From Mayamaea pseudoterrestris (taxonomy: Eukaryota; Bacillariophyta; Bacillariophyceae; Sellaphorales; Sellaphoraceae): a DNA stretch of 64,000 nt. The position numbers were made by a program, and so were the translations under genes. Numbering within the stretch: position 1 is the stretch's first letter; the number at the start of each line of letters is the position of its first letter. The stretch covers positions 372,001 to 436,000 of the forward strand of contig BROI01000004.1 of NCBI GenBank assembly GCA_027923505.1, written 5' to 3'. Positions 4,610-45,785 of the stretch are shown here, in pieces. The notes beneath the pieces are model-generated. The model saw only the letters and a program-made list of their open reading frames with translations. It had not been told where the DNA came from and did no database searches.

Positions 4610-4845
4610 TGACGTACCTCGTGTCGCACCATGACGCACCATGACTCGCCAATAGTTGGTACTATGAGATAAGGTGTAGTCCCAAAAACTTTGATTTTCA
4701 CTGAGTGTCGCACCATGATCAAAGTTATTGGCACTATGAGATAAAGTGTATTGCCAAAAACTTTGATTTTCGCACTATGAGTTATAGTGTAGTCCCAATA
4801 ACTTTGATATTTTTCAAAGTTATTGGCAGTACACTTTACTCCACA
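4610..4845. repeat. Palindromic repeat cluster A in a divergent promoter region
   Basis: Between the glutaredoxin and HD-gene starts, short blocks recur in both orientations: CCAAAAACTTTGATTTTC, ATCAAAGTTATTGGCACT, CTATGAGATAARGTGTA and TGTCGCACCATGA (4622-4634 and 4706-4718). A compact hairpin runs from about 4794 to 4832 (CCCAATAACTTTGA ... TCAAAGTTATTGGCAG). The same core appears in cluster B near 45.6 kb. The function is unknown. Possibilities are a shared cis element, a small foldback element, or the product of hairpin-driven copying. Confidence 0.75.
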
Positions 4846-4917
4846 CTGCAAAGTCTCCAGCGAAACGTGTTGATGATCGACCATGGCGTTCCAGTCACTT
4901 CCGACAATCATGGCTCT

Positions 4918-5844
4918 ATGTTGCCCTCTAACTTTTGTTTCTGGAGTCTTTTCATTTGCACTCTAGTCCATCAGTCTACTTCATATCTATCGCTGCCATC
5001 TGCGAAACGCATGCCAATCAAAATGAGCTCTGCTGCCACACCAGATGCCACGTCTTTCCCTGCGTCTCCAACCAATCTAGACGAAACTTCTAAAGTTTCA
5101 GCCGCAATCGCCTTTGCCAAACTGGTTGGCAAGCTCAAGACGACTCCTCGCACGGGGTGGGTTCGACGTGGCGTTCCGCGATATGAGAGCGTTGCCGATC
5201 ATAGCTGGAGGGTAGCAGCTCTTTCGCTTGTCATGGCGTCATCATCCAATGGAACCGCGTCAATCGACCTTGCAAAATGCATGCAACTAGCAGTCGTTCA
5301 TGACATGGCTGAGTGCATTGTTGGCGATATTCCTCCTGATGATAATGTATCAAAGGAAGATAAGCAACGAATGGAGCTGGATGCTGCCCAGACCATTGCG
5401 CAGCTTCTACATGGAGTGAACGGAAATGGTTCTGAGCAAGCTTCGAAAGGTGATGCAGGGTCCTACTTTTTGAACCTCTTTCACGAATTTGAACTGCGCG
5501 ATACTCCAGAATCCAAGGTTGTCAAGGATTTGGATCTGATGGACATGATAATACAAGCCGACGAGTACGAGGAACGTTTCGGAACGGACCTTTCCGACTT
5601 TTTTGTCAATACTCAACCAAGCCGCTTTCAAAACCCATTCATGCGGCAAATGGCTGAACAAGTCCATGTGCAGCGTACTGAGCGAATAGCGCGACAAAGC
5701 AAAGCTGTAAATGGATCTGCATCATCGGACTTATCAGCCAAAGACAAGGCTTTTGTTGAGGAATTTTCGCGGGCGTCGTCATCGCTTGACACAGTCGAGA
5801 TTGAGCGTGTCGTTAAGGCTTTACGGGCATGGGATGAACGATGA
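4918..5844 (+). CDS. HD-domain phosphohydrolase, HDDC2/YfbR-like 5'-deoxynucleotidase
   Basis: Single exon, 308 residues from the ATG at 4918. An in-frame ATG at 4873 is an alternative start. The HD-superfamily core is clear: GWVRRGVPRYESVADHSWR has the first His, VVHDMAECIVGDIPPDD has the paired His-Asp and the E..VGD block of the HDDC2 family, and a late Asp (VVKDLDLMDMIIQADEYEE) completes the metal site. Members hydrolyse (deoxy)nucleoside 5'-monophosphates using a divalent metal. The family is about 200 residues long; here about 60 extra N-terminal residues begin with a hydrophobic stretch (FCFWSLFICTLVHQ) that could be a signal sequence or anchor, so organelle targeting is possible but unproven. 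The last 50 residues are a helical extension. Confidence 0.85.
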   Translation: MLPSNFCFWSLFICTLVHQSTSYLSLPSAKRMPIKMSSAATPDATSFPASPTNLDETSKVSAAIAFAKLVGKLKTTPRTGWVRRGVPRYESVADHSWRVAALSLVMASSSNGTASIDLAKCMQLAVVHDMAECIVGDIPPDDNVSKEDKQRMELDAAQTIAQLLHGVNGNGSEQASKGDAGSYFLNLFHEFELRDTPESKVVKDLDLMDMIIQADEYEERFGTDLSDFFVNTQPSRFQNPFMRQMAEQVHVQRTERIARQSKAVNGSASSDLSAKDKAFVEEFSRASSSLDTVEIERVVKALRAWDER

Positions 5845-6011
5845 GACTTTATCGGATGTATCGTGCCATTTGATACGAAATGGCCCGTGGTATGTAGTAA
5901 ATTAAAGCTATTTCCACTTATTACTGAAGTAAGCGTTCATTAACGCATGTATTTTGCCTGTCGTTGGTGTGGCGGCACAGGTTATAGCAAAGGCATCTTC
6001 GCCATCAGTCG

Positions 6012-7139
6012 CTACTTTGACTGCGTAATCCCCGCAGCTGCAACATTCTCCTTCCCTCGCTCTCCGAATCGACCAGTCTCTCCTCGATCCAACTGCTCGT
6101 ACGTTTGGCCAATGGCCAAGGCAGCAGAATTTTGCTTCTCTCCGGGTAGGAGCTGCTGTAAAATCGCATATGAGGCTGCAACAGACTCTTTCGATAGTGG
6201 TTCCTTGTCGGAAGAAAGGCGCGACAAGGCTGTCGCAATATTATCAGCCTTTTGGTATCCTGCTAGACCAACCATTTCAAACGTTTTCCCAGTCGCCTCT
6301 GGTAGCGACAATGCCTCGACCAAGACTTGAGCTACATCGGCTCGATTGACTCTTCCACATGCAACGTCGCCTTGCGAAAAGATTGGTCGAGAACCAGCTG
6401 GCCAGTCGTCATTCAAACCGCACGGCCGAATGATGCAGTATGGTGTTCCGCTTTGTCGAAGTTTTTCTTCGCTCTCACGCTTGATATCCAGAATACCGGC
6501 TGGATTGAGACGGACAATGGGAATGTCTGCTGCACCAATGAACTGTTGCTTCTTTGCCTCGTCCCAAACGGTGCGTGTGACGCCGGCGCTGCTCAGCATG
6601 ACAAGCTTTGGAAGAAGGGGCTTGTTGTTGCGGGAATCTCCATTAACGGCGGGAGCCTTTTCGTTGAAGAACTTGGCAATGGCTTGTATTCCAATGGAGT
6701 CAATTGACTGCTTGGGCTCGGCGTCTGCGGTCGTTTTTCCTCCAAAGAATTTACTCTTGATCTTGTCCAGCAGGCTCGTCGGCGCAGACGCAGTTGCTGG
6801 TCCACTGGTAAAGCCCGAGGCGCACCATACAGCTGCATCAACGCCATTCAAGGCCTGCTGAAGCTCTTGTTCGTTTGTAAAGTCGCACGCGACAATCTTG
6901 AGCTTGTTTAGTTCACTTTCAGAAAAAAGTCGCTTGGCCTTGTCTTCATCGCGGACGACGGCGACAACATTGGAGTTTCGTCGAAGCAGCTCCTTGACAA
7001 CCAACGATCCCGTTCGACCGGTAGCTCCAGCGACTGCAACCGTCGACGGGGGTGAAGGGGACGCAAATGAACGGACCCTTTGAGCTGTCAGCAGCAGCAG
7101 GACGAGTGTGCCGACTCCGGAAAATCGTTGACTGGTCAT
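6012..7139 (-). CDS. Plastid-targeted NAD(P)-binding protein, NmrA-like atypical SDR
   Basis: Single exon, 375 residues. The N-terminus (MTSQRFSGVGTLVLLLLTAQ) is a signal peptide ending at RVRSFASP, a plastid junction with the key Phe. The Rossmann glycine motif VAVAGATGRTGSLVV follows directly. Next come VAVVRDEDKAK, the VDAAVWCASG turn, LVMLSSAGV, and IIRPCGLNDD, the features of the atypical short-chain dehydrogenase group that includes plant TIC62-like and cinnamoyl-reductase-like plastid proteins. The classical YxxxK pair is not evident, so it may bind NAD(P)H for structural or regulatory ends. An insert (residues 125-160, with KIKSKFFGGK) separates the early beta strands. It is convergent with the HD gene and divergent from MnSOD. 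Confidence 0.8.
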   Translation of the reverse strand: MTSQRFSGVGTLVLLLLTAQRVRSFASPSPPSTVAVAGATGRTGSLVVKELLRRNSNVVAVVRDEDKAKRLFSESELNKLKIVACDFTNEQELQQALNGVDAAVWCASGFTSGPATASAPTSLLDKIKSKFFGGKTTADAEPKQSIDSIGIQAIAKFFNEKAPAVNGDSRNNKPLLPKLVMLSSAGVTRTVWDEAKKQQFIGAADIPIVRLNPAGILDIKRESEEKLRQSGTPYCIIRPCGLNDDWPAGSRPIFSQGDVACGRVNRADVAQVLVEALSLPEATGKTFEMVGLAGYQKADNIATALSRLSSDKEPLSKESVAASYAILQQLLPGEKQNSAALAIGQTYEQLDRGETGRFGERGKENVAAAGITQSK

Positions 7140-7528
7140 TATTTGATACTTCCTCTCCTCCAGCCTTTAATACAAGTCTGGGCTATCCAATGGGGACTTG
7201 GTGATAGGTATGGTGCGCCTAATGTGTGCGTCTTAGCTTGATTTACTTGAGTGAGACGATTGGAAAGTTGATGATGTGTTGGAGGATGCGTCATGGCCGG
7301 ATCTTCGAATCGATTCGCTTTCCATTACCGTTGCGACTGCACGATAGAGTACGTCACGCATTTGCGAGCTCTCGTTCGCGCGATCTTCGCAGAGAGCTCG
7401 ACGCAAAGATCGCGCGCTCCCTCCACCTCGTTCCTTCGCAACCGTACTCGCACAACTCACTCGTCGCATCTGTTCCAGCTTTCAAGTCACCCAACAAGTC
7501 TCTCTCTACTGCCATTCAATTATTCTCC
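7140..7528. other. Divergent intergenic region with an inverted repeat
   Basis: These 389 bases separate the starts of the NmrA-like and MnSOD genes. An 11-base perfect inverted repeat, CGCGCGATCTT (7377-7387) and AAGATCGCGCG (7406-7416), has an 18-base spacer that contains GAGAGCTC; a GAGCTCTC lies just upstream. In-frame codons upstream of the MnSOD ATG stay open back to 7226, but the peptide does not look like a targeting sequence, so I treat them as untranslated. Confidence 0.5.
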
Positions 7529-8327
7529 ATGACTATTACAAAAGTTCTCTCTCAAACGGCCTTGAAGGCTGCTGTCAATCTGCAGTCCGCCAAAGTTCCA
7601 ACGCAGCTCGTCAAGTCGAGCGCCGCCCTCTTCTCCGCCTACGGCGGCAAGCAGCAGGAGCTTCCCAGCTTGACGTACGACTATGGCGCGTTGGAACCAG
7701 CCATTTCGGCGGAAACCATGACGATTCATCATACCAAACATCATGCAACGTACGTCAACAACTTGAATGCAGCCATTGACAAACTGGATGCAGCCTTGAG
7801 TTCTGGTGATGTTTCCGGAATCATTTCATTGCAGGCAGCCTTGAAATTTAATGGAGGAGGTCACTTGAACCATACACTGTTTTGGGAAAACTTGACGCCG
7901 CACTTGACGCATCCAGAGTCTCCCAAGGGTGACTTGGCGACTGCCATTGACCAGTGCTTTGGCAGCTACGACGGTTTCAAAAAGCAAATGAGCGACAAGA
8001 CAATTGCCATTCAAGGAAGGTATGTAACATGTCGGCGTAATTTTAATACGCTACGTTCAAAAACTTACTTTGTTAAATTTGTTGGAATTTTCCAGTGGTT
8101 GGGGCTGGCTTGGATACAACAAGTCGACGGGCCGATTGGAGATTGCAACCTGCGCGAACCAGGATCCTTTGCAGGCCACGACCGGACTTGTTCCACTTCT
8201 TGGCATTGACGTTTGGGAGCATGCCTATTATGTTGACTACAGAAATGTGCGGCCCGATTATGTCAAGCAAATCTGGGACGTCATTGACTGGGACGCTGTG
8301 GAGGCTCGCCTCAATGCTGCGAAGTAA
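7529..8327 (+). CDS. Manganese/iron superoxide dismutase, probably mitochondrial MnSOD
   Basis: Two exons (7529-8019 and 8096-8327) give 240 residues. The intron splits the AGT serine codon of [13 protein letters not shown]. The start at 7529 gives a Lys/Ser/Ala N-terminus of about 35 residues ([20 protein letters not shown]) typical of a mitochondrial presequence. The metal ligands are visible: a His in [14 protein letters not shown], a His in [14 protein letters not shown], and the Asp and His of [20 protein letters not shown] and GSGWGWLGY favour manganese over iron, although heterokonts also keep plastid FeSODs. The enzyme converts superoxide to oxygen and hydrogen peroxide. A longer start at 7226 is possible but unlikely. 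Confidence 0.93.
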
Positions 8328-8441
8328 TTGGCATTGCCGCATTTCAAGCCGGCTTAAAAATAGTCAAAGGAGCTGCGATGCGTTTTCTATTAGTCCACGT
8401 TAAGAGTAACTCAAATTAAATGATACTGCTCTTTTACGTGT

Positions 8442-11400
8442 TTAAGACCGTTGTCGCTTGGCCTCGCGGAGCTTGTCGCGTTTGCCTTCCGCACGATACT
8501 CACGCTTCTTGTTTACCTTGCGAGCGGCTTGAATCGCAGCATCCTTCTTGGCGTTTTCCTTCTCCTTGTCGGCTCGCTTTTCGTCCTTCTTTTCTTTGCG
8601 AATTTTGACCTTCTCCTTTCGAATCGTATTGAGCGCTTGAATGAATGTGACCTTCTTTCGCTCCTCCGGCTCAAGGACTACGGCGCGTTTGGATAAGTAG
8701 CCCTTCTTTTTGCGCTTCGTTGCGTCCTTAGGCTTGCTGGCATATGGAAGTGCTTCCTCCAGCTTCTTGGGAACAAAAAGCTTTGTCTTCTTCTTCTCAG
8801 GTCGCTCAATCGGCTTGTATATAGAGTCCGGGTTGACCTCAATGGGCGTATCCGTCTCGATCTGCAGCTGCGCCTTGGGTTTCATTCCGCGCCAACCTTC
8901 AACACCACCAGAAGTTAAATGGTTGGTAACAGGATTGTAATACTTTTTCACGTCCACAGGCATCCATGTACGGCAAACGACGATATCAGACATGAGAATC
9001 TTATCTTCGAAGGTAGCACGGAAGGAACCTGGCTGGCCTTGGCGGATACCCTTCTTTACTTGACCACGAATGCCACTGACGGTTTTGATCTTAGCGCCCT
9101 CGAAACGACTGACTTCAAGGTCACTGTTGAACATACCGGAAATAAATGCCGAATTTTTGAAGATTTTAGTCGGTGTTCCGACAAGCTTAAGCTTCTTCGC
9201 GATTGAGAACGATGCATTTAGTTCCAATACGACGCCCGTCGCAGCAATTCGGAAGCCTGAAATGTTACCAGCCATGCGTTGAATCGCAAGAATACCAGTG
9301 TTCGGTGGCGTCTGCGGTCCATAGAATGTCGCGTAGCAATGCATATGCTCTGGCGTGTATTTGAGGTACCGATGCCGACTGTTTTGGTCCTCTGTCGAAT
9401 ATACTGGTATGCTCTGAAAGCGGCGCCATCCGATTGAAAACACCAGAGGGTCGTTACACTTTAATATCTTCCTGTGCCAGCGATGTTTCTTGATGCGGCA
9501 ACGCACCAAACCCAGACTAGTCTCTTGGGGAGTCAGACCGCCAAGGATTAACGGCAAGTTTGGGTTAAACGACGAAATGAAAGCAGCTGGTATTCCGTCA
9601 ATTTGCACGCGACAGTACAACCCTTGCCGAAATCCTTCGTGCCTCTGGCGTGCGCGTTCGCCATCTTCGCCAAACTCTTCTTGATTTCTAGCCAAGCGAG
9701 CTTCCTTGTCTTTCTTCATCTGCATAACATACGCATTCTCTTCCTCTTTATCGTCCTGCTCTTTGTCCTTTGTTTCGTCCTCGCCCTTCCCAACTCTGGC
9801 CACCATCTTTTTCTTCTCTTTCTTCTTGGCGTAGTATTCTCGTCGTTGCGTGTCAGTCATGCCTGCCACATCTTCGCTATCGCTAGCTTCATCTTTAATT
9901 TCAAGTTCCGTTCCTCCAAATTTCTCGCCCGTTTGAAGATCTTCAAAATCGCCAAAGTTTTCACCATCCTCGTCGACATCTTCATCAGCCTTGTGCCACT
10001 TGCCCGTCACAAACTTGTCGCGCAGCGATTCTATTAGTGACTCCTCTCCTTCTTCGAGCCATGGTGATACGTCCACATAGCCGGCGTCGAAGGAACCGGC
10101 TAATCTACTCGAATCCTCTTCACCCAAATATGAAGTTTGCAATTCTTTAGCCTCTCCATTGTTGTTTAAACGACCGACTGCGCTAGACTTGCTCTTGGGC
10201 CGGAAAAATTCATCATCTGAAGCATCATCATCACCAGTCTGCGTATCAACAAGTGCGTCGTCTTCACTAACAACAGTGGTTGCAGCACTTCCGTATATTA
10301 ATTCCTGCAGGTTGGCTGAAGCTGACTGCCGGTCGAGGAATGACTGTGCGGCTCGGCGCGATATGTCACTCTTCCAGTCGCCAGGTTTGGAGGACCGAGA
10401 CACCTTATTGCTCCCGCCGGCTGAGGAAGCGTCATCACTATCACTACCTTCGTCGTCGTCATCGTTGATCTCCTCTTCTTGGTCATCATCACTGTCGTGG
10501 TCGACATCTGACATTGCGTCATCCGATTCGTCGCCGCTCTCATCGTCGGATCCGGAATCACTTTCAAATTCGGATGAAATCCCGCCTGTCTGATCACTTT
10601 CCAGGATAGTCCTTCGGCGCAAGGGTATGGACGCCTCATTCACGCGATTGTCGTCCTCCTCTTCGTCGCTTGAGGCGTCGGAACTAGCTGGTATCGCTGC
10701 ACTGCCGCGGAATAGGCGAAGGCTCGATTTCTTCATCTTCTCATCGATCCCAGTTCGAATGTCCTGCATACCTTTCAATATTCCCGCTGGAGTATCGGAA
10801 TCATATTCCGGCTCCATGTCCTCGTCATCTTCTGCTTCTTCGTCATCGCCATCATTGCCAATCCGAGCTGGCAAAGCGAGATTTTCCTTCTTGGTGTAGT
10901 TGATCTTTGGAATGTCAATGTAGATTGCATCATTGTCAAACGCAACTGCGCCCACGTTGGAAAGCGGGGCAAATAACAGATTGCGCTTACTCAAGGATGT
11001 GCGTTCCTTGTCCTTCTCCACGAGTGGGCAAGGATCTGGTAGAGTCGTAACACTGTTCATGCTATAATCACCGACACCAATCAAATGTACCTTCATATTT
11101 GGTTTCAAATGCGTCCCGCGCACGTAGCCGTAAAAAACGACGCTACGAGAGCATTCAGCGTCACGCTCAATCTCGTTCGGGTCCGTAATGTCTTCATGTC
11201 GATCTACAAGAACGTATGGATGGGTATTATGCCAGACAAGAGGGCGGTACTGTTATATGCGTGAGAAAATGGCTAGTGTGAGAGCATATAGGTACAATGA
11301 CCACCAACTTCCGAAAAGTTTGTCTTCTCTTCCTCATTGTCAGCTGCTGACGGCATTTTGCTCGACGGCGTCTTTCATTTCGTTCAAGATGATTCAGATA

Positions 11401-12497
11401 GAAGTCACCAAGAAAGTTGATATTCATCACACAATGAGGGCGACGTGGCATGGCGCGAATGGCAAAGAAACATACCTAAAGTTATAAAGAAAAGTTGTGT
11501 GAGGACCGAGTATCGTAGCTCTCAGCAAACAAGATTTCCGTAAACATAGTTTCAGAAGCCCATAGAGGGAAAATACTTGAGCTCCGCACGATTTTTTCAG
11601 AAGAAGTCACCAAGTTGTTGCTCATCATCAACCACACAACCAAATCGCGAATCCGTATCGCTTAGCAATATAACATACCTTGACTCGACCCATGAATAGA
11701 GAAAGCTGCTTAACTTCATTCTTCAGATATTTGCCGCCAATGACTCCGCTAAAGTGAAACATTTTAGCACCCTCGTAAATCTCAGTCCAAAATCGATGCT
11801 TCAGCAGCTTCTTCGCCTGCCGCACACTCTTGGCCGTCTTGAATGAATCCAAATGTGTAAAGATTCCCATGACTTTGGGGAACCCGTGCGTCTGCAGTAC
11901 ATTCAAGAACTCGAACGTATCCATCTCGAACCCATACTTGGCATCGACGCAAAGCAAGACCAAGTCGGCCACCTTGGCGCAATCCAGCATGGCTGCAGTA
12001 TCGCCACTCGGACACTCCAAGAAGGTGACGCGTTTGCTTTTTCCAGTCACGACGGTAATGGGACCAGTAATTGTTTTAAGGTTGTTGTTCGTGTACAGTT
12101 TGACGAGCGATCGAATCAGTGTACTCTTGCCGACGCCCGGTGGTCCCATGACGACGACAACCGACGGAGGCGCTTCCTCTACGGACGCAACTCGTCTATC
12201 AGTTAATGGAACATACTCCTTCTTTTGCGACCTATCCAAGTTGCGTTGAATCACTCGCTTGGTGCGGCCAATGTTGGCAACGCCGAATGCCTTGTGGTTG
12301 TGCTTTTCGACGCGGGAGCCTTCCTTCTTGGCTTTGACGTCCTTCTTCTTCTCCTTGCCACCGCGACCATCTTTCTTGGTCTTGTGGGTATGGTGGTCCT
12401 GCTTGACTTCCTCCATGAGTGATGGATGCAAGCTTGACCGATGATAGCTTGGTGGACGAGGCTGCGAAGGAACAATTGCAGGAAATGGACGAGCCAT
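8442..12497 (-). CDS. BMS1: BMS1, 40S ribosome biogenesis GTPase
   Basis: Two exons (12497-11679 and 11249-8442) around a 429-bp phase-0 intron give 1208 residues, between the yeast (1183) and human (1282) lengths. The N-terminal GTPase domain has GPPGVGKST at about residue 115 and [20 protein letters not shown]. After the splice comes [19 protein letters not shown], the hallmark BMS1 stretch, which proves exon 2 begins upstream of its first Met (11123). A long acidic region (residues about 380-620) leads to the RIBIOP_C/DUF663 domain ([32 protein letters not shown]-like). The C-terminus is a Lys/Arg-rich tail. BMS1 works in the nucleolar SSU processome with RCL1. It is divergent from RPL5 and convergent with MnSOD. 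Confidence 0.95.
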
Positions 12498-12677
12498 GGT
12501 TGGTCGTCAATGATTTTTCAAATGTGTCCCTATGGTACTAAAAATGTCTCTTTCCATGTCGCACCACGAATCAGTTACCGCGTTACTAATTCCGTCACCA
12601 ACGAATTGCTCGTCGTTTTCGCATCAACTCATCTTCTTTCTTGATAACCAATAATACACAAGAAACAATCCATTACC
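12498..12677. promoter_or_regulatory. Divergent promoter region BMS1/RPL5
   Basis: A 180-bp gap between two ribosome-related genes transcribed away from each other, so shared control is plausible. It contains TGTCGCACCACGA at 12557-12569, one of four copies of this motif in the window. No TATA box is obvious. Confidence 0.45.
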
Positions 12678-13813
12678 ATGGTAAGACAATTGTTGAAATT
12701 AGCAGCTTAGTGGCGAGCAAAGGAGCCATGAAAGGATATCGATCGACTGAGGTGCTTCTTGCCCTATCAAAACATAAATTCTCACATCATTTTCTTCCTC
12801 TCGTCAGGTGTTCGTCAAAGTTCAAAAGAGCAAGGCTTACTTTAGCCGCTTTCAAGTCAAGTTCCGTCGTCGTCGCGAGGGAAGAACCGACTACCGTCAA
12901 CGTAAGCGCCTCGTCGTCAATGACAAGAACAAGTTCGGATCCACCAAGTACCGTCTCGTTGTTCGAGTAAGTTTTAGCGTTTTAGCTCCTCATCGGTTGT
13001 ACATCAATATCAATTTGCCTTATTGAAGCTCATTCCATTCTGTTTGCTACTGATTCACAGTTCACAAACAAGTTTGTCATTTGCCAAATTGTTTACGCGC
13101 TTGTCGATGGCGACCGCGTCCTCTGCCAGGCTCACTCGTCCGAGTTGCCCCGCTATGGACTCAACTCTGGTCTCAAAAACTACGCTGCTGCCTACTGCAC
13201 GGGCCTTTTATGCGCGCGTCGTCTATTGAAGCAGCTTGGACTTGACGAGACTTATGAAGGAAACACTGAAGTTGATGGACAGATCATCACGACCGAATAC
13301 GAAAAGAAGAAGTACTACGTTGATGAAGTTGACGAGGACAAGCGCCCATTTCGCTGCCTCTTGGACGTTGGCTGCAAGCCCACCACCACTGGATGTCGCA
13401 TCTTTGGCGCACTCAAGGGAGCCGCCGATGGTGGCCTTGACATTCCACACAACGAAAAGCGCTTTCCCGGTTACGACCGCGAGTCCAAGGAGTACGACGC
13501 TGATACTCACCGCGAACGCATCTTTGGCGGTCACGTTGGTGAATACATGGAGTACTTGGAGGAGGAAGATAACGCCAAATACCAGGAGCACTTTGCTGGA
13601 TACATTGCTAGTGATGTTGCCGCTGATGGACTCGAGGACCTATACGAGAGTGTGCACACCAAGATTCGCGAGGATCCATCGCCGTCGGAGAAGAAGGAAT
13701 ACACGCCCGACAAAAAGTACAAGCGCAAGTCCAAGCTGACATGGGATGAGCGCAAGGCTCGTGTGCAGGCCAAGAAGGATGCAAAGAAGGCCGAGCTTGA
13801 GGCCGATGAGTAA
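12678..13813 (+). CDS. RPL5: 60S ribosomal protein L5 (uL18)
   Basis: Three exons: 12678-12680 (the ATG alone), 12808-12966 and 13061-13813, giving 304 residues (family about 297). Exon 1 ends immediately after the start codon, a placement often seen in ribosomal protein genes. The joined start [20 protein letters not shown] matches uL18. Further marks are [34 protein letters not shown] and [20 protein letters not shown]. The C-terminus is the usual basic tail ([20 protein letters not shown]). L5 binds 5S rRNA with L11 and joins the 60S central protuberance. It is divergent from BMS1. Confidence 0.97.
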
Positions 13814-14032
13814 ATTTAACTTTACATTGTTAGTCGTCGCCCTTTGCCTACATCAAGCTTGTGCTGTATTATATACTCGTACTTATATGGTGCTACTTAA
13901 AAAGGACTGTTTGTAGAAGTTGAGATAGTAGAGTGATGTTTACCCATCTCTTAGCATATGTACAGTTAGAGAAGCGACGCAAGAATTACAAACCGCTGCA
14001 CATTCAGCAAGCATGCTATGCTGCCCAATTAA

Positions 14033-15103: not shown

Positions 15104-15582
15104 GTCAAACGTCCAAATGACCCAATGACCGACAGCTAGACGCTCGAAGTGCTGCTAGTTTCCAAATAGCTCAATTATTCCTTCTTTATTCAGTGCAGCA
15201 GTGCGCCTTGACAAATGTTCTGTGAAAGCGTGGGAAGCTCGTTGACTGTCACACTTCACACTCGCCTGCCTTGCGCGTCCGGCAACTTCCTTGCCAGTCA
15301 ACCTTATTACCAGTAATGTCTAGTTACTGATATAAAAACAATGGCGAGCAAAGGTTCATTGATATACATTGGAAGCCAGGACGTTCGTCGATGCTCGACC
15401 GAAAACCTGACCAACTTGCGGCAGTTTTGAAGATGAACGGAATGTTAGGTGCGTGTCACGCTTTGCAAGCGTCACTAAAAAGACAATTTACTGGTCAATG
15501 AGGGATTGAAAAGACCCTCATGATTTTCTCCGTCTTCATCCAATCTTCGTTCACCGTCAACGAACCCTTCCTTGCAACAAGC
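15104..15582. other. Divergent intergenic region, nothing recognised
   Basis: The 479 bases between the RING-H2 and TMEM18 starts show no repeat, motif or open frame that I can support. An in-frame ATG at 15520 could extend the TMEM18 protein by 21 residues. Confidence 0.4.
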
Positions 15583-17069: not shown

Positions 17070-17433
17070 CGACTGGGAAGTTGATACTCTAAATGTCAAT
17101 TGATTGATTGTGACTTTATATATATTTATTGCTTTCGGCAACTACTAAGCATGTGTCGTTTCAAGTACTTATGAAGAAGCTTGTTGGAAACGGATGCGCC
17201 ATGTGCGCCATGGTAGAGACGACGAGTCTCGATGACAAAACCGCTACGATCATCAGTCTTGCTGCGACATCATCGTAGACGGAGATCCGCCGCGATGCTC
17301 ATCGACGTCCACCACAATGGCAGTGAGGATCTTGTCTTCACCGTCGATTTACCTTCTTCCATCACCTCGGTCTGTCTAACGACCCCTCCTCTCATTCATT
17401 AATATCCAAGATCCGCAGTAGAAGCGCGGCAAA
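17070..17433. other. Divergent intergenic region, nothing firm
   Basis: The 364 bases between MOCS2B and RPN3 hold only weak dyads (for example CTACGAT ... ATCGTAG near 17250-17276). No open frame or repeat that I would defend. Confidence 0.35.
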
Positions 17434-32789: not shown

Positions 32790-35700
32790 AGACAGTACGT
32801 TGATTTGCGTAAAAAAGAAAGGCGTAGTTCCTACTCAACAATCTCTGGTTCCAGGTGAAGAAGCGTCAGTGAGAGACTCGAGAGGTCAAAGTTGGACGTG
32901 CAATATTATGTTGTCGTCCTGCTCGTGGTCGTGCGTTTCGTTCGCTGTCGCTCGAGTACCAGTCCGACTTTTCATCTTGTACACCAAAGAGACGGGTGGA
33001 AACGACGCTCGGGACAAGTGCCCGACAATTTGGTGCCCACCTTGGACCATGCGAGCAGCGTAGCCGGTGGTGTGAGCAGCAGTGCCATGCAGGTAGCGTA
33101 GCATTGCGTCAGAACGCCAGCGGCCCATCAATTTTATAATATTGTCATCGCAGCCGCCATTGAGGAGAGCCATAGCACCACCAGCGCGCAGGGAGCGAGC
33201 CTCAATGTCGGAGGGGTCTAAGCCCAGGGTAGGACCAAGTGCAATGACAGCATTGCGAAGGGTGCGCGTAATCTCCCCATTCTTGACGCCAAGAGGACGA
33301 TTAGCACACCAGTAGGTTGCAAGCGGTGTGTGGGCAGTAGCACCATGCTCACGCAAATAAAGAATGCGCCGAGCAGCAGCAAGCACCGGACAGCAATGGA
33401 ACAAGCCAGTGCGGCCTTGGCTAATGACTTCACCGCGGACACCATTTTTCTGATTATCAAATGTGAACGACACCTGGGAAGCCGCCAACAAATCTGCAGC
33501 TGGTGCAGCAAAGAGATCAAGACGGCGGGAACCCAGACAGAGTTGGACTGCACCTAGGCGTAGTGGTGGGGTGTTGCCACCGTGGGTGCCAGTGTACTCA
33601 CCAGGGCGCATCAAGAAGAAGAAACCCAGGGTGATGATGTCGGCAAAGGTTTGCAGGGGCAGGTGAGCCTGGTCCAGAATAGGCTTGGGCCAGGATGTGT
33701 TGCACAATGGTGACCGGAATTGGTTTGACGCGAGTAGGGGCTGGATCTTCGCGGTGCCAGCATTTAAATTGTTGCTGCAGCCGGTAGTCAATTTTGCCAC
33801 AGGAATCTTGTCGAATGTCGTGGGACCCCATGCGGGCGAACGTCTGGCCCACCGCACGGATGGCGTCCGCCACTGTTGCAGCGCGGACGGGTTGACCGCT
33901 GGCGGAGAGTCGGCCATCGCGGTAACGGGTTGCCCAGACTTGGAGAGTTGGGACTGGGTCATCCAAGGTTTTGAGGAAAGGGTCGAGATGGTGTTCAAGA
34001 CAGAAGTCACACCATGAGGCCCAATGCTTGTCCGCGGAGGCGGCTCTTGAAGGAACGACTCCGGCACGGATCTGGTCTTGGACAGTGCGGTAATCATGGT
34101 AGAAAGCATCTCGGGTCGTGGTTGGTACAGTTGCCAAGGTAGAGGCTGTGGGTAATGAGTGTTAAAGTAGGTGAGTAATTCAGAGTCAGACAAATGCCAC
34201 AAACGGGAGGCCTTGTCCGCCATTTCATTCACTGGACCAGGAATGTAATCATGGAGTGGAACATAGCGATGTGTGCGTTGATGCAAGGACTGGCATCTGA
34301 GTAGGTATGCTGCTGGGCCAGTGGAGGTAGTGGAGCCCTTGCGCTGCCAAGCGACAGCTGGAGTGTTGTCGTGGGAGGTGTGAATGGTGCGCTCACGGAT
34401 GTCAAAATTGTGTGCCAAAACATCATGATGGAGAACCGTCCCAAACAATTCCAAATCACTATTGGTAATAGTGCCATGTGGGTTGTCAAAACTCACCAAG
34501 TCCGCCTCAATGTGAGGAGGGAACCTGGCACGCCACAAGATTGGTTGTAGGGCATTGGTGGGCATGGAGACAAAGGCCACGGCCCCAGCGCCACGACCAG
34601 ATGCATCAGTAGTGCCCACAATAGCCGGGTCATCAGGAATCAATTCAGCAATGCGTGTTGGTCGTGTCTCTAGACCAGCCGCAATCCATCGAAAATCTTC
34701 CAGAAAGTCATGCACTGCCTGGGTCAACCGCAAACGACCAGAGTGACCATCAGGATGGCGAAAGGCCTCTTGCAAGGAACTGAACAGACCACGGCGCCCA
34801 GTGGATGCAAGGACATGGAGCGCAGCTCGCCCAAGAACTTGTGCCACTGCTTGGTGGCAATGCGGCGCCGCGTAGGAGGGATACTAGCTAGGATCTCACG
34901 TAGGCGTTCCAGGCGATGGGCTGGCAATGCAACACTCATCGCACCGGTATCAACCAACCAACCCAGGACTTGCTTGCGAGTGGTCGCACAAGCTCCTTTG
35001 AGTAACTTCTTGACAGACACTGGTTCTTGACGAGCAGGTAAGTCAGTGGGCTCCAGTGGGCGTAGAACTTGGTCAAATGTGTGCAGGAGAACACGTTGCA
35101 ACCTTAGCAGCCGATCCGGATTGCCTTGGGCTAAAGCAATCAAGTCATCCACATACAAGTCATTGTATGCAACAGGACGCTGGAGGATATCAGAGCGCTG
35201 GCGTGGAGCAGGAAGAGGCGCCACACTAGGATCATTGATGGGCGTATCCTCCACAGTCACAACAGGTGGGACAGAGCCGTGTGCGGGCACACTTCCAGGC
35301 AGGGGTGTTGGAGTGGTGGTAGCTGGTAAGGTTTGAGCTTGTAACTCCAGACGGTGAGGCGGTGGTGACTTGGCACCACACTGGAAGGCTTGATTGGCTA
35401 AGTCACAAATGGTCTCTGTCACTGCACAGAAATAGGGTGGAGAATGAATCCAACCCATAGGCAGTGTGAGTGGAAAAGCAATCAGAGGCTCCTCACCAGC
35501 ACACTGAGGAAACAAGACACCAAGCTTGGGGATATCTCCAGGCAGCAAACGCACACGGTAAAATCCATCAGCAATATCCAACTTGGACATGTGGACGGGC
35601 CCATAGCGGGGGTTGGCTCGAGCAATGCGTTGCAGCAAACGATAAAAAGTGCGGCCAAACTGCATGGACTCCAGTGGCGCAACTGCAGCAGTGTCATCAT

Positions 35701-38700
35701 TGACCCCAAAGTAGCTGTAGTCAGAGATGGTCCGAGGTCGCCGGTCTCGCTGAGGCACAACACCAAGAGGACTGAGTCGGAGTTGTTCCATTCCAAGGAC
35801 CTGTGAGGCTGGTAGGACGGTCCAGTGGCCTTTCTTGATCATGTCAGTGAACTCCTCCCGCAGAAAAGCAGTGTGTTCAAAGGCAGACTTGTGAGGGCCC
35901 CTCTTGAGCGCCATTTGCTTTTGTGCTAGTGTCCAAGGCTTTTTCTGCATAATGGCTGGTGCGCCACGTGCATCCAATTGGTGTAGCAAATGTGCAGCTG
36001 GATGATCCAGATCCTTGACGCTGGGCTGTAAGTCAGAGGCGCCGCGGCTGGCCTCCACAAAAGCACGCCAATCCGGAGACAAAGCAAGACGTGCAGATGC
36101 CTCCTGAACCAGCTGCCCCAATTCATCATCAAGTAGTTGCAAGGATGAGGTGTTGGTGTGTGTAGGCAACTTGGATGTAGGAAGACTGCCAGGCAAAGTG
36201 TAAGGAGGTGCAGATGCCTTTGGGGAGACCAGGTCATGTGCCTTTGGCTGAGAGGCCCAGTGTGGAGCCCAGCCAGTTGCCATGGCAGGTAACTGTGCAG
36301 GTGCAGCAGTGGCTTCCATTGAGAGTGGAGCAGCCTTGCTGAATGCCAAGTGTGGTGCCATGGTAGGAGCAGCCTTGCTGGCAACCAAGTGTGGAGCCAT
36401 GGCTTGGTGTGACACCACAACTGGGGAGGCGCCAGTACATGGGACTGGAGCAGCCACTGGAGAGGCATCAGCGGTGTGAAGGCCTGGAGAAGCCACATCC
36501 TCAGGTGCGACGGCGACAGACGATTCAAGGGGGCCTGGAGAAGCCACAGCCTGGTGTGTAGGTGTGACGGCAACAGATGGATTGGTGCTAGGAGCCAAGG
36601 TTGGACGACACTCAGGGTGGACAACTTGACGACTTGCTTGGAGTTGACTTGCTTGGACTTGGACCAGGGACGCAGTGGGACCGGGGACAGAGGCCAATTT
36701 GATTACATTCCTGGCAGCAGTAGGCAAGAGACGTGGTGTGGGCAGTAACAATGGTTCTTTCTGCACAACATGCACGCCAGCTTGCTTACCAAGTTCAGGA
36801 GATAGGACAGGTGACACAGTAGATTTAAAACGTTTACTACTGGGCGACTTAATTACTGGAACTACTTCTTCATTTTCGACAACTGGACCTGCGACTCTGG
36901 ATGGTGGAACAGCAGAGGTTGCAGGCGTCAGCGGATTATAACATATAGGGATCCGCCCGCCGGACCGTCAATCAATGCGGGGCTCAAGATGCTCCAATGC
37001 CCAAGCCAACAAGGCATCATCAGCTGCCTGACTATGCTTGATGTGGTCGGCTTTGCGCTGAGTCACATTTGCCACGCAAATGATAAGCCATGCAGGGAGC
37101 AGTAGCGAGTCCTGGGATGCTATCCTTGGTGGGCCAACTCTTGTCCTCGGGATTCTTCCTCATCAAGCGGAGTTGGCGCTTGTCCTTCTGGAAGGCTTCA
37201 AAGGCTGGGTTGTAATCCAGGTTGATGACCACCGCATTCGCCTTGGTAGAAGGACTGTTGCCGCTTGCACCCGTCAAAGTAGAAGCCGCGGTGGTATGAG
37301 TGCCTTTGCTGTTGACACTGCTACCAACCTTGATGGATCCTGGGATGTCGGCTGCCTTGTTGAGTTGCTTGCTTAGTTGAGTGCAATACTTGGCAGGCAA
37401 AGGAGGCAGGACAGAGAGATTGCCAATTTCCAAGTCCTCCATGACACTGGCCAGATCCGGGACGGCCTTGTAGGTGGGAGAAGTCTCCATAGTCTTGAAC
37501 CAACGGTGGAAGCGGACTTGGACTGCTCGCAGCATGAGGGAGGGTCCCTGCTCACCAAGGCTAGCCAAGGCGTGCTGATAGGTAGGAATGTTGGCTTCAA
37601 ATGTCTTGGTCCAATGCTCCAACGTGCAGACAAGCTCATGATCTTCCCCAAAGTACTGTGTGAGGAGGATTAGGTAGGCCCGGCACATGCGTGCTGCCAG
37701 GAAGTAGTTGGTTGGCAGCACCACTTTGGAAGTAACAGCCTGGAGTTCCTTAGTATCTTGGTAGGTGATTGCATGACCGCCACTTAGGATGTCGTCATGC
37801 GCCTGCGCCGCTTGGAGGACTTCAGCTGACATGTTTGAGCCTTGGAGAACAGTCAGATTGGGTGGTACCATCATGAAGACATTGATGCCTCCACTAAAAT
37901 CATCCTTGTCGGCGCCTGCAAAGTCTCCATCTTGAAGCCGTCGGCTAATGTGCGGCGTCACAATAGGAGCATAGTCTTGGTTACCCGCTGCCACCGCACC
38001 CTCAACTAGATGGTCTTGCACTACCTTGCGCTTGTCCTTGTCAGCCGTGGCGGCGAGGAGGTGGTGCAGTTCGGGATAGCCACTTGGTGAAGCAATGCGT
38101 AGCATGATGCTAGTGCGCCGTAATTGTGTCGCAGTTAAAATGTCGGAGACTTTCTTGGGTGCCTTGGCTGCTTCGGCGCGAGCCTCTTCACGGGCTCGGA
38201 CTTCGGCTGCATCCTTAGCTTGGCGCTCCAAAAGGTTGACCAAAGCACTTTGATTTGGATCGGGTTGGGCGAACAAGTCCGGCAAGAGGCGCCGCAAGTT
38301 GGTCGAGGTGAACCGGGCCACATCGGCATCCCAGCTCGGAGCGGCTCGTGCAATTCCTGGAATAGTAGGCACTCCATCAGCGGCTCGGCAAGTAACCAAT
38401 AGCTTTAGCCAAGTGCAAAGGTTGGTCAAGACATGTTCCAGCCCCGCATCAATAATAGCCGGCGCCAAACGGTCGAAGAATTCGCGCCGCGTAAAACCCT
38501 GCCCAATCACCAGCGGTGCGAACCGCACGGGCAAGGCCTGAACCATCCGCGCACGACCTTGGACAATGGTCGCATCGTCTTCGTCAACCGGCTGCAATGG
38601 AGGCAAATACTCAGTGCCAGCAGGCAAGCCTTGCAATCGCTCCATTGTTTGTGCCAATGTTGCTGGCACATTTGTGAAGTGCCCGTTCAATGGACTGAGA

Positions 38701-39130
38701 TGAAAATCTGCCACCGTCAGTTCGACGAGGCCTGCCGTGCCTTGGAAAACCTCCGTACCAAAACCGATGACTCGATTGTCCCAGCGGTTGGTGCGACCTG
38801 CAACGGCAAGGTACCGCTGGGCCCCGACAATGGCGTGAATGCAACCATGCATAGGCTGGTCGGCCTCGACCAAGGCAGCAACAAGAATGGGAGCGGTCTC
38901 CAAGGGCGTGTCGACCAAACCTTTAAAGCAATCAGCTGCAGTTAAAGGAGGATCGGCAGTGCGAGTGAGACCGTTCAAACCATTGTATTCACCGTTCAAA
39001 GGATCATTACTTGCCTGACTGTAACGGGCAAGGAAGGTGACCGTAGGGAGAGTGGCCCCGGCAAAAGGAATGGCGGCGGCTGCGGCAGCGGCGTCGGCTC
39101 CATTGACGGCGGCCATGGAGGAATGCACTT
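32790..39130 (-). mobile_element. DIRS-type tyrosine-recombinase retrotransposon
   Basis: Three long frames read on the minus strand. A gag-like frame (39128-37032, 698 residues) ends with a Cys/His knuckle-like motif near HLRGKC. A pol frame (36817-34724) has a Pro/Ala-rich leader, then reverse transcriptase with LDIADGFYRVRLLPGD and the YVDD catalytic box. A third frame (34847-32886) has an RNase H-like part (GTTDASGRGAGA) and ends with a tyrosine-recombinase domain (ARSLRAGGAMALLNGG, LMGRWRSDAMLRYLH). No protease, DDE integrase or LTRs are seen, which fits the DIRS order. The element looks close to whole, with perhaps one or two breaks, so it may be fairly young. The outer limits are guesses; I could not identify its terminal repeats. 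It fills the gap between AP-3 delta and the SAP gene. Confidence 0.88.
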
Positions 39131-39570
39131 AATTCTATCTTCTTTCCTTGTCAAAAGCAGCACTCGAGGCAGCTCTCTAAAGGAATCAAAGGACAAGCGA
39201 CTGTAGCAACAACAACAGGAGGGGCTGCTTGGAAGGAGCTTGCCTTCTTCAAAAGAATGGCTCCGAGCAGGGCGAAGGAGGATCAAAGGATGCTCTTCAA
39301 CACGCTCAGGGGCTTATCTGCAACCACGCAGCTTTCAAAGCCGTATGGTGTCGCCACGCTGGCGACTGTAACATATAGTGTAGTCTTTTCCTTCCGCTTT
39401 CAGCTGCGGCAAAGACGAGCCGTCAAAAGTCCTTCAACTTCGAGAGGGTGAACCAAGCAATCGACCGGCGTCGAAGAAGTATAGCAACTACCTGTAGCCA
39501 ACAAGCAGCATTGAGAGCTGAATAAAGACTAGATAAAACCATTTGAACCAATAAGCTAGGCGAAAAGAAG
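39131..39570. other. Gap between the DIRS-type element and the SAP gene
   Basis: These 440 bases hold no gene. Part may be the non-coding end of the retroelement and part the promoter of the next gene. A purine-rich segment (near 39222-39300) and a pyrimidine-rich segment (near 39385) are visible, with no repeat I can match to the other flank. Confidence 0.35.
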
Positions 39571-41810
39571 ATGAAGCTGCAATTTGTCGTGTCGGCGCAG
39601 CTGCTTGCAGTGACTGTCTCTTTTCAAACGCACCGTGCATACTTCTTGTCAAAGCCATTGCTACAGACGACGACGACATTGAGAGCACGGGGAGAGGAGC
39701 CAATTGTCAGAAACTTCAATGTTTTAGTACCCCAGCGCTCGCCATATTCGGGACGGTTCCCAGAAGAAATCACGGCGCCCGGACTGTCATCAGCACCTGC
39801 ACCATCCGTCGCACCCCCTGCTGTCGTGTCGGCTCCTCCAGCACCAGTCTTTGTCGCCCCAGATCCTCCAGTGCCTCCTCAACCAGTATCTATTGTTCCA
39901 GATGTCATTGCAACTCCCGAGCCAGAGATTATTCAGCAAGTCGCGCCGCCACCACCAATCTCCTTTCCTGACGCGCCAATTGCAAGCACGCATTCCGCAG
40001 CAGTATCATCCGCCGGTACAAACCCATACTTGGAACGCATGCGCGAGAATCACCAAGAATTTCGTGCCATGGTCAAGGGTTCCCTACAGGAGTTCGGCGA
40101 CTCGGACGCTGGCGGTGCGCTTCAGGACAAGCTTGCCAATCTAAAGTCACTCAACGTTGATACATCAAACGGTTGGCCTGCACTTCGAGACAATCTCAAC
40201 AAGCTTACTCTTGATACAAACAAATTATTTCAGGACTCGTTCAACCAAATTCCAGCTGACCAAATGCGCACGAGCATTCAAAACGCTGCAAGCTTGGTGG
40301 GAAGACAAGGAACGACGGCCGATCAAGTATTGCAGGCACTCAATACCAAAGAGTTGGGTTCATGGTATGCCGGCATTATCAGTGTCATTGTATTGGGTGT
40401 CGTGGCAACGGCTAGTTCGAAGTCGGCGAGTGATGAAGTTGCAACTGTGGCAAAGTCCAACGAGGACAGCATTTTGGATAGTAGCAGCAGCATTCCACCA
40501 ACGCTTGTGGACGATTTGACGGAAACAAACACAGCAATTCCAGCTAGTAGTACCATGGAGCAGCAGATCATGCAGCTCACGCAGGCGACTGCAGCAGTAT
40601 CCAAGGAACTCAAGGATTTAAAGTTGACACTGGCCGAACGTGACTACACAATTGCGTCCATGCAGAGCGAATTTCGTGTCGTGCAGAATGAGCTGACAAT
40701 GTTGAGAACTGTAGAGGAACAACTTGGTACCAAATTAAAACGAGTGGAACACGAGTTGGCGGAAAAGGTTGGGGAATTGGAAGAGGAGCGAGCGATGCGT
40801 GTCAAATTTGAGGCTGAGTTGAAAGAAGCGTCGAGCAAGGCAGCGAAGAGTAGTCTTAAAGAGGCTGAACCAATTAAGTCGGAGGCACTAGAAAAGCCAG
40901 CACCAAAAGCATCGAAATCTTCGAAAGCCGCTACGGCTTCCAAAGCTTCGCCGGCACCAGTAGAAGTGCCATTGAGCGAGAATGTGGCATCGAACGCGTC
41001 GAATCCTGCTGCTCCAGCACCTGCACCCAAATCAGCGCCCGAGAAACAACCTGCGACAAAGAAGATGTCAGAGCCTATCGCCTCTACGCCTAATCCAGAG
41101 CCAGTAGCGGTACAAAAAGCTGCGAGCGAAAAACCCCAAGCGACCAAGAAGGCGCCCAAGTCTGCCGCCTCTGCACCAATTCCAGCACCCGCACCATCAC
41201 CCAAAGTTGCAATCGCGACACCACCAGCGACAAAGAAAGTAGATGAATTACTCGCGCCTTCAACAAATCTTGATCCTGTATCTCCACCTAAGACTGCGTC
41301 TTCGAAGGCACCTGCGACCAAGGCATTTGCCGAGCCAGTCGCTCCATCGCCGTCTCCAAAGGCTGCTACTCTGAAAAAGGCTCCAAAGAAAGCTCCTGCC
41401 AAGACTGTCACAGCAGATGCTTCTGCACAAGTCTCTGCACCAGCATCCACAACTACGTTGGACAATGCAATTAGCAAGAAAGCGTCATCGCCTGTATCTG
41501 AACCTTTTTTCGCTGCGGTTGCCACCAACACTACCGAGTCTATCGCGACAAAAGCTCCGACATCGTCACCCGTTGCTTCCAGTGACGATTGGAGCAAGTT
41601 TTCGACTTCGACCTTGACAAGAAAGTCGATTGCTGAACTAACTGATTATCTAAAAGTGAAGGTGAGTTTGCATGCAGAAATATATTGCTGGCGGATGTAG
41701 AGCGACCGGATTCTAACACAAACGTTTCGATACAGGGGGTTTCTGTCGTTGATAGTAGTGGCAAAAATTTGAAGAAGGCAGAACTGGTTCGAGCAGTGCA
41801 GTCGGCGTGA
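39571..41810 (+). CDS. Plastid-targeted SAP-like, coiled-coil, Ala/Pro/Lys-rich membrane protein
   Basis: Two exons (39571-41661 and 41736-41810) give 721 residues. The start (MKLQFVVSAQLLAVTVSFQT) is a signal peptide ending at SFQ, a plastid-like junction. A Pro/Ala/Val linker (residues 75-150) leads to helices, then one membrane segment at about 265-285 (WYAGIISVIVLGVVATAS). A heptad-like coiled coil follows at about 325-430 (LKDLKLTLAERDYTIASMQS). The next 230 residues are a degenerate Ala/Pro/Lys/Ser repeat, like H1 or plastid nucleoid proteins. The end, across the intron, is a SAP-like helix-extended-loop-helix (KSIAELTDYLKVKGVSVVDS, then KKAELVRAV). A link between thylakoid or envelope membrane and plastid DNA is an inference. 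I do not recognise an ortholog. Confidence 0.78.
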
Positions 41811-41916
41811 AGGGGAACGATTTCGTTGCAACGCTATTAAAATTGCTTGACTGTAAATTACCACTAAATTTGTAACATACAACTTTGAAAGTCAAGCAAG
41901 TCATCATTGACATACG

Positions 41917-44900
41917 CTACTGTATGACGCCTTTCGCAAAGTACCTAGCGATGGTATCGAATCTGTCGTCGGCCTGACTTAGATCTCTCCAGAAATTTTC
42001 TCGCAGGGATTCAGACACGTCCTGTCGAGATTCTCCATCGCCGGCTCGGACCTTGGCATAAACCTCGTCAATGTTTAATCGTGATATGGTTCCTTCCGAA
42101 CTTGATGGAAGGGATAACGATATTCGCAGAAGAGAGTCGATCTCATTCTCCATCGAATTGCAAAGATGGTTGTACTCTTCGACTTCGCTAGTCAACCGCG
42201 ATATTTCTTTTCTGGAATCCTCTAGAATGGATCCGACGTAGTCTAGCGCGACCGATAATGGAACTGTCTGCCGGTTGAGCGTCTTGTTGAAATTCTTTTC
42301 ACTGAATTGACCAGTTCCTTCACCTGCAAGGATGCGAGCAACCCGTACGGGAGGCAATAAACCCTGATCTTTGGCTAGCGCAAGCGCCTCCTGAATATCT
42401 TCAAGAATTTCGTCTGCCTCGTCCTCTTCGTCAGAATCATCTTCATTTTCACTCTGTTTTGGGGACTGCAGGATATCGAATGAGGTCATGATGATGGAAG
42501 AAATAAGTCCACAACGTGTACAGTACCAACTGACTCACCACTTTTAACTTTTCGCCTACAAGGTTGACAAAGTGGCCAAGAACGTCCGCCAACACTTCTG
42601 GATCAGTCCGGCTCATTGCAAGAAGAGCGCGTCGAGACTTTTCACTGCCATCTTTGGCATACCTCTCTAGTAACATGGGCGTCATCTGGAGCCGTTCGTA
42701 CAGCAGTAATTCACCATCTTTAAACCCTGATAATTGCACAAGAACGAGAGCATCATACTCGCCAATTTCACCGCAATGACTGTCCGTCAGCGCCGTTATA
42801 ATTTCTTGGTGCCTCAGCTTCTCAACCTCAATGTCGCCGTTCCGCTTGGCCTGTTTCCACTCATCAAGAGTTACCTCAAGTAACGTACGACGTAACGATG
42901 GCGTCAAGTAGCACCTACTGCGATTACAATGAGCGAGAATGAGACGCAACATCTTTGAATTCTCAACAAATGCAGGTGCAAACAAGTGCACTGGGTACGG
43001 AGGATGAAGTATATCCTCTGGCGAGAGTTCAATCATTTTGGAAAGGGACGCCGAGTCCACTAATGAAGCTTCAGCTAGAAAATTTGGTGAAAATTTGCCG
43101 ACGCACAGGGCGACGACAACTCCGGCAGTCTCTCGTGGTAGAACGCGAGCCAGGCTGACGCCGTGAACCACTAGTATTTCCGCCACTTGCTGGGCATCCA
43201 ACGTGCAGATAGTAGCCAGTGCATCGCGAGGGTTTTCCGATATATTTGCCAGAATTGCCGATAAGGATGCTTTGTTAACCAAACTGGATGTTGAAGCCAC
43301 CAAAGCATCCGCCGCTTCGATATCGTTGAGCTTTAAATAACATGTTCGCAGCAATTCAATATGGACAGAAGTCGCCAACTCCAACTCTCGTAGCTTCTCC
43401 AAATACTTGACCAGTAAAGGAATTTTCGGTGCGTCAAGGAAACGAAAAATGACATGAGAGCTCTCCAGCGACCCAATCGTATGGATGTATTGATCCATTG
43501 CTCCCGCGTAGTCGTCCTTGCTGTACAAATGCTCGGCGTATTCTCGAAACAATGCTGTGACGTCAGCCGCATCGTACGATGGATCCGCGTAAGCAATGAC
43601 AATTGCTGCAGAATACAAGTTCTTCTGTACGAGCAACGATATTTTCTCTTGCGTCAACTTTTCCGCCAAAGTAATCAGAGACCCACCCGATGTTAAAACG
43701 ACGGCACTTGATCGCCCGCTACTTCCGCTCCCTTCCTCACTCTGTACAGGTAACGTCGCTACACCTGCAGCTCGCACCGCACGATGTCCCGGCGACAGCA
43801 ACAAGTGGAAGGCAACAAGCTTGTTAACGGTGTCATAAACATCAACAGCATCGCGCCCCGACTTTTCGTCCGTCGATGCCACGAGAGCGTAACCACTGGA
43901 AACTTGATCCGACTGCACGATTCGCAAGCGCTCGGCCGGCGTTGGCGGCGGAATCCCACAATAAGCCAGTTTGGTGCCTTCGACAGGGGCAACGTTGGTG
44001 CGTTCGGTCCGCTGGTACGAGTACAACCCGTCGTTTCGAGCGACAGTGATTGTGACTTGTCCCTGAACCCAAGTGGCATCAATCAATGACGCCGCGTTTA
44101 CCGGTCGTCCATCCAAATCATGCCTCGCAGATGGCGCTGACAAAGTAGAGTTTCCAGCAGGAAGAGCCATATCGTATGAACACAGACCGACGGCAGAAGT
44201 CATGTTATTATTGCTGGCTAAAGTGCCAACATCCTTGGGTCGATAGGCACAAAATACGCTTGCACGCTGCTGCTGATCCACTAGCGCCAGTTTGACACTG
44301 ACAACTTGTAAGCCTTCCGCCGACGGTGGTGCTGGAATGCGCAAGTATGGCCGCAGTGTATTGTTGCGTAAAGCCACGGCTTGACTGTGGCTGTGATTTT
44401 GCGTATTGTAGGAAAACACCAAAACGACTCCAGAGTCCGTTCCAATAGCCACCATGCCTGGAACAATATCAACTGTCGTGCAGTTACCGTCACTGACACT
44501 CCAAGAATGTAAAAGGCGCCAGAATTTAATGGTTGCTACATCCTCCATTGTTAAGTTTGGTGCAGTCTTGGCAGAAGGCAATGGTTTCTGACATGACAAA
44601 TGCAAATGAGGATCCTCCCATACGACCAATTGATTGGCCGAGACACATGCTAAATGTAGAGGGCCCTGTGGTGGCATTTGAAGCTGCTGCTTGCTGTGAG
44701 TAGTGCCATTATTCGAAACAGAAAGCCGACAAGCCGCTATACCAATTACGTGATCAAGTTCCTTTGTCGCTTGCCTTCGCTGCGGCTGCGGACTTGACGA
44801 CGACGCAGACGCCTTGACGGTTACTGGCGCGACCAAGGCCGACAAGACGCTAAATGGTGCAAAATAGCCTCGCCAGCCATCCAGGTCATCCAGATCCTGT

Positions 44901-45436
44901 TCCATGGCAAAGGGTGGATTGCAGCGAACTGTCAAATCGACGCAGTGCACGTAATGCGAGTCTCGTGACGAGATAAAGGCCAAGACCAAACCCTCAGCTG
45001 TCTTGGAAATATTCTTGTCAGTTACGTTCGATGGAGAAAGAATAAGCGCAAGTTGCTGCTGCTGACTCGGCAAGTGCACCAAACCTGCAGTTGATGTATC
45101 GTCTGTGTTGGCAGCTGCAGTTGCGCTACAAGCCGTTAAAGACGACCAGAAAGCCTGCAGCGATTCGCCATTTTTCCTCTGCTTGACGTTAACCGCGCTA
45201 GTATCATTTGTATTCGCAGTTGCAGGAGTTGGTTTCGAGTCGAGAGGCAAGGAAGCAGTCGTAACGACGAGGCTAATTGCCGTGTCCTCCGCAAGGTTGC
45301 TGCTGCTTACTGCGACTACGGTAGACGGCAAATTATCTCCTTCCTTTGCCACAAACAAGTCTTCGACAACTTCCGTCGGCAAGCTAAGAGTATGCCGCTC
45401 GAAAAAGGCGAACCGCTTCCAGCGAGAAGACGCCAT
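41917..45436 (-). CDS. VPS11: VPS11-like HOPS/CORVET subunit lacking the RING domain
   Basis: Two exons (45436-42539 and 42465-41917) give 1148 residues. The N-terminus SRWKRFAFFERH matches the VPS11 start, followed by a degenerate beta-propeller with inserts to about residue 600. The alpha-solenoid is clear: LVQKNLYSAAIVIAYADPSY, then EYAEHLYSKDDYAGAMDQYI, HTIGSLESSHVIFRFLDAPK. The end has VALDYVGSILEDSRKEISRL, the coiled coil before the usual RING, and FDTIARYFAKGVIQ, the usual segment after it. The C3H2C3 RING that belongs between them is absent; only one Cys remains in that exon. The subunit helps tether endosomes and lysosomes. Large Ser/Thr/Asn-rich propeller loops are unusual. Confidence 0.85.
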
Positions 45437-45499
45437 GGTGCCCGAATGGATTTGTGCAGCAAGGCTTCGTCAATCGAGACGCGGTCAGACAGGACTACA

Positions 45500-45785
45500 C
45501 TATGGTCGATAGTGCCAAAAACTTTGAAAAAATCAAAGTTTTTGGCACTGTAAGCTCAACAGTAGTCATGAGTCCCGGGAAAATCAAAGTTTTTGGCACT
45601 GTGCGCTTAACAGTAGTTTCCTTGAGTCGCGGGAAAATCAAAGTTTTTGGCACTGTGAGCTCAACAGTAGTTGTCATGAGTCCCGGGAAAATCGAAGTTT
45701 TTGGCACTACACTCTAACTTAGAGTGCCAATAACTTTGATTTTCAAAGTTTTTGGCACTACTCTTTGACTTACAGTGAGATGATC
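45500..45785. repeat. Palindromic repeat cluster B in a divergent promoter region
   Basis: Between the VPS11 and SAS10 starts. A hairpin at 45510-45551 reads AGTGCCAAAAACTTTGA ... TCAAAGTTTTTGGCACT. Then come four head-to-tail units of about 51-54 bp beginning AAAATCAAAGTTTTTGGCAC and ending CTCAACAGTAGT..GAGTCCCGGG (the last unit is cut short). A second hairpin at 45721-45763 reads AGAGTGCCAATAACTTTGA ... TCAAAGTTTTTGGCACTACT. The TTGGCACT/AGTGCCAA core is shared with cluster A at 4.6-4.8 kb. The units keep an open frame on the plus strand only by repetition. Confidence 0.85.

Follow-up and report, generated by a model that had tools for sequence, protein, structure and literature searches.

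Three arrays of tandem and inverted repeats in divergent gene spacers and their resemblance to foldback elements

Background

A typical MITE has fixed ends, is accompanied by a target-site duplication and exists in many near-identical copies. Among foldback elements, the transposase of Galileo binds sites inside the tandem-structured long inverted ends (PMC3688188), and Tetris, a non-autonomous foldback element, has few copies that keep their target-site duplications (PMC4079207). Among diatoms, 235 MITEs have been annotated in Phaeodactylum tricornutum, as have MuDR elements (PMC5859163).

Here we describe three short repeat arrays, termed A, B and C, in a single 64-kb stretch of DNA, which is referred to in its entirety as the window. 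The first-pass annotation of this window had recognized two clusters, both of which are confirmed; the third array, C, had been overlooked. Searches of the literature recovered neither the core strings of these arrays nor a description of such arrays in diatoms. In our estimate it falls just short of an even call that all three are small non-coding, non-autonomous foldback (MITE-like) elements which came to lie in short spacers of the 5'-5' type.

Results and discussion

A palindromic core shared by clusters A and B

The 17-base core AGTGCCAAWAACTTTGA is present in 12 copies in the window when up to 3 mismatches are allowed (7 exact and 5 with one mismatch), as against 0.45 expected, and none of 100 shuffles of the window attained this number. 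Within the window it is confined to two clusters, the coordinates of which had been correctly recorded in the first-pass annotation. Cluster A (4645..4850, no strand assigned) occupies the spacer between a glutaredoxin (Grx) gene on the minus strand and an HD gene on the plus strand, and combines a 41-bp tandem unit with 5 cores in the order + - + + - (4678+, 4719-, 4750+, 4791+, 4814-). Cluster B (45491..45780, likewise unstranded), in the spacer between VPS11 (minus) and SAS10 (plus), contains the other 7 in the order + - - - - + - (45511+, 45533-, 45584-, 45638-, 45692-, 45723+, 45743-). Four of these are same-orientation tandem cores with start-to-start distances of 51, 54 and 54 bp, and an inverted pair is found at either end of the cluster. 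In silico folding of the single-stranded DNA yielded z-scores relative to shuffles of -5.8 for A and -7.9 for B. The core search, the spacings and the folding together bear out the earlier description of a shared core in both orientations, of hairpins, and of units of about 51-54 bp in B.

A further motif, CGCACCATGA, has three exact copies, all of them in cluster A, and similar sequences are seen in other divergent spacers (the motif and its relatives lie at 4625-4645, 4709-4718, 12560-12569 and 17195-17212). Over the whole window such matches number 88 against 69 expected, which is a weak enrichment.

Cluster C, a third and stronger array

Using TRF and repeat searches we detected cluster C (49525..49958, no strand assigned), a long foldback in the spacer between the ORFs at 48032-49426 (minus) and 50119-51717 (plus). 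It comprises about five 42-bp tandem units, the first of them 41 bp in length, followed by about 4.5 reversed units. Its left arm (49538..49728, plus strand; units L1 to L5 in part) and right arm (49768..49958, minus strand) are 191 nt long and 91% complementary, and it is the strongest of the three arrays. The strand is predicted to fold into one long, nearly continuous stem of ~190 bp, for which DNA parameters give -214.6 kcal/mol (z -29).

The units of C belong to several types, whose order is mirrored between the two arms: the outermost pair, L1/R1, has a private 41-bp form with 95% identity, L2 is equal to R3 and 95% alike to R2, and the inner units constitute a third type. This mirroring implies that a mixed tandem array predated the inverted duplication, and that units were gained or converted afterwards. 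Matching units differ by 0-2 bases, and judged from these differences the array looks recent. A search for inverted repeats (score of at least 13, arms within 600 bp) in the rest of the window retrieved three 13-bp pairs with arms ~400-500 bp apart, and no other such repeat. No match for the arrays emerged from an Rfam search. Several C units (49596-49860) contain TGACGT or TGACGC, which we take to resemble bZIP/CRE-type sites of diatom promoters.

Relationships among the three arrays

The alignment of A with B scores 52, whereas shuffles reached 21 at most, and the homology extends past the core: the right-end module of A (4787..4849) is colinear with that of B (45719..45778), and the match of the right flanks takes in ~25 bp of non-core sequence (p 0.005). 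A comparison of the left ends of A and B detected no match (p 0.75), and, as they disagree, the ends of a putative element cannot be fixed. The two clusters are separated by 41 kb, and Pfam gene calls indicate that their neighbours are unrelated, which upholds the earlier contention that they do not represent a segmental duplication; we accordingly reject that explanation.

Alignments of C with A and with B are at chance level, their scores being attained by 267/300 and 92/300 shuffles, respectively. We therefore do not count C among the copies of the A/B family and handle it as a separate sequence of like build. The outermost units of A, B and C alike are inverted and face inward, and tandem units of 41 bp (A), 51-54 bp (B) and 42 bp (C) lie inside the inverted repeats. 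Half-sites of the form GGCACT/AGTGCC are found at a spacing of 14 in A and B (seven sites, at most 2 mismatches being allowed) and at a spacing of 11 in C (ten sites). With 75 similar pairs elsewhere in the window, this common layout is only suggestive.

Genomic setting

The genes flanking A and B were assigned by Pfam. To the left of A, on the minus strand, lies a gene for a plastid-type glutaredoxin, whose signal-peptide-like N terminus is followed by an AFAP motif, an arrangement familiar from diatom plastid presequences; the HD-domain gene lies to the right, on the plus strand. The protein encoded at 50119-51717, adjoining C, bears C-terminal PS-rich repeats, which are of a type widespread in diatoms. 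Genes are dense in the window and its G+C content is 0.46-0.55 per 2-kb stretch, which makes a diatom the most probable source of the DNA.

About 7 divergent spacers separate host genes in the window: Grx/HD, NAD-binding/SOD, BMS1/RPL5-like, MoaE/PSMD3, VPS11/SAS10, the spacer of C, and VAC14/JAB. Arrays are present in 3 of these as opposed to 0 of ~15 other spacers (hypergeometric p ~0.02, calculated by hand on an approximate, ORF-based gene map). Several divergent spacers exceed the average length, which also raises their odds of holding arrays, and the bias toward 5'-5' spacers is modest. The assertion that the repeats lie only between 5' ends is true of all three arrays described here, albeit on small numbers and within the window.

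Elsewhere in the window, three minus-strand ORFs (32886-39116) lack confident Pfam matches and, inspected by eye, together resemble a single retroelement. These are a gag-like ORF (37032-39116), likewise recognized by eye; a reverse-transcriptase-like ORF (34724-36400) with a YVDD motif and a weak match to RVT_1 (E 0.017); and an ORF (32886-34565) with a tyrosine-recombinase-like C-terminus (RAGGAMALLNGG...LMGRWRSDAMLRYLHG). This combination, as judged by eye, suggests an element of the DIRS type. A 39-bp direct repeat (1.9 copies) is situated at 36327-36402, where the reverse-transcriptase-like ORF begins.

Signatures of mobility and database searches

The first-pass annotation had proposed target-site duplications as a check on mobility. 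The longest candidates at the three arrays measure 6, 6 and 4 bp and, with ends that are not fixed, 58% of random stretch pairs share at least 6; comparison of flanking direct repeats thus detected no target-site duplication beyond chance at A, B or C, and mobility is consequently something that we infer. Among the window ORFs searched, no DNA transposase was recognized. In the viral and prokaryote collections the hairpin pattern and the C unit each had 0 matches, the core had 4 single matches and a longer core 6. A second near-copy was present at 0 of these 10 loci, for which reason we regard the matches as chance occurrences and reject them as copies of the family.

Weighing the possible origins of the arrays

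The two readings put forward in the first-pass annotation, a MITE-like foldback family and a shared cis element multiplied by hairpin slippage, still lead. The similarity that A and B show outside their core and the existence of C tilt the balance toward foldback elements, and as regards mobility there are only target-site duplication candidates that do not surpass chance and isolated, chance-level matches in the collections. Under the foldback interpretation, A and B would be old, diverged copies of one element family, with a unit consisting of GGCACT-N14-AGTGCC and then about AAWAACTTTGATTTT, whose presence in both orientations would render either strand hairpin-capable. C would be a younger and separate element of the same build and different sequence, probably arising as a 42-bp tandem array that underwent inverted duplication, with gain or conversion of single units at a later stage. 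The repeated core might serve as the binding site of a transposase encoded elsewhere, and the number of units may subsequently have been altered by slippage or unequal exchange.

It is possible, if doubtful, that the arrays are instead multiplied cis-regulatory palindromes, in which the core or GGCACT-N14-AGTGCC would be a putative host-protein binding site, selected, copied in shared promoters and co-regulating both neighbours. The location of all three arrays in divergent spacers is consistent with this, as is the pattern of conservation: the conserved columns across the 12 core copies make up one contiguous block (0/20,000 column permutations), with variable linkers, though the block is partly ascertained as the copies were retrieved via the core itself. 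Within the tandem units of B the core also varies less than the right linker (0/51 versus 6/51 differences, p 0.027), without a significant difference from the left linker (2/51 versus 6/54, p 0.27), and with pairwise counts that are not independent in either comparison. However, the homology of A and B reaches outside the core, the flanking gene pairs have no obvious common function, and conservation is likewise expected of a transposase site, so that it cannot separate the two readings. In a very unlikely scenario, the arrays would exemplify a promoter element class of their own: dimeric half-sites (GGCACT, N11 or N14, AGTGCC) would have multiplied within bidirectional promoters into arrays of alternating orientation, unit number and hairpins would tune both neighbours, and the unrelated sequences of A/B and C would have reached one build by convergence. 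We also consider it rather unlikely that the arrays grew purely locally, through enlargement of imperfect promoter palindromes in place by replication template switching and slippage, with neither mobility nor function. The different unit lengths (41, 51-54 and 42 bp), the absence of target-site duplications above chance and the structure of C, an inverted duplication of a pre-existing tandem array as expected from template switching, all fit such growth, but the sequence shared by A and B across 41 kb, amidst unrelated neighbours, requires some transfer of DNA, for which old ectopic copying would have to be invoked. Least probable of all is a hairpin RNA locus, with C, and perhaps A and B, giving rise to a long double-stranded transcript from which small RNAs would be processed; the near-continuous stem that C could form is in keeping with it, but any recent long palindrome would fold in the same way, and Rfam offered no match.

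We favour the foldback interpretation because sequence of A, down to a colinear right end, recurs in B despite their unrelated neighbours, and because foldback elements are built with tandem repeats inside inverted ends. The published accounts of Galileo, of Tetris and of the MITEs and MuDR elements of Phaeodactylum lend support to this analogy. The long arms of C, in which the unit types are mirrored and a private form occupies the outermost position at both ends, point in the same direction. Against it stand the lack of target-site duplications above chance, the differing left ends of A and B, the dissimilarity of C to both, and the absence of a transposase among the window ORFs searched. 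The arrays are real, now extended by a third and stronger example, and most likely represent a known kind of feature. If they are mobile, compact foldback elements that seed repeated candidate binding sites into shared promoters of a diatom-like genome would constitute a route from transposons to regulatory DNA. Should they belong to the host instead, they would provide readily testable bidirectional promoters with a variable number of units. C is seemingly recent enough for a comparison of strains to separate these readings.

Comparison with known systems

The arrays share with bidirectional promoter elements that carry arrayed binding sites a position between divergent gene starts and conserved palindromic half-sites, but they depart from ordinary clusters of binding sites in that their units of 41-54 bp are arrayed both in tandem and in inverted order and, in C, in that they form an almost perfect long palindrome. 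By description rather than by sequence they can be likened to the MITEs of Phaeodactylum tricornutum, in that they, too, are short inverted repeats of non-coding DNA within a genome of diatom type; unlike typical MITEs, they lack demonstrated fixed ends, a target-site duplication or many near-identical copies. They also differ from FB, Galileo and Tetris: they are only ~200-430 bp long, their ends are not defined, the flanking direct repeats do not exceed chance, and no autonomous partner is known. With the foldback elements, namely Drosophila FB, Galileo and Tetris, they have in common inverted repeats that are themselves built from tandem units in variable number and, by analogy, a short core repeated along the array that is a candidate transposase site.
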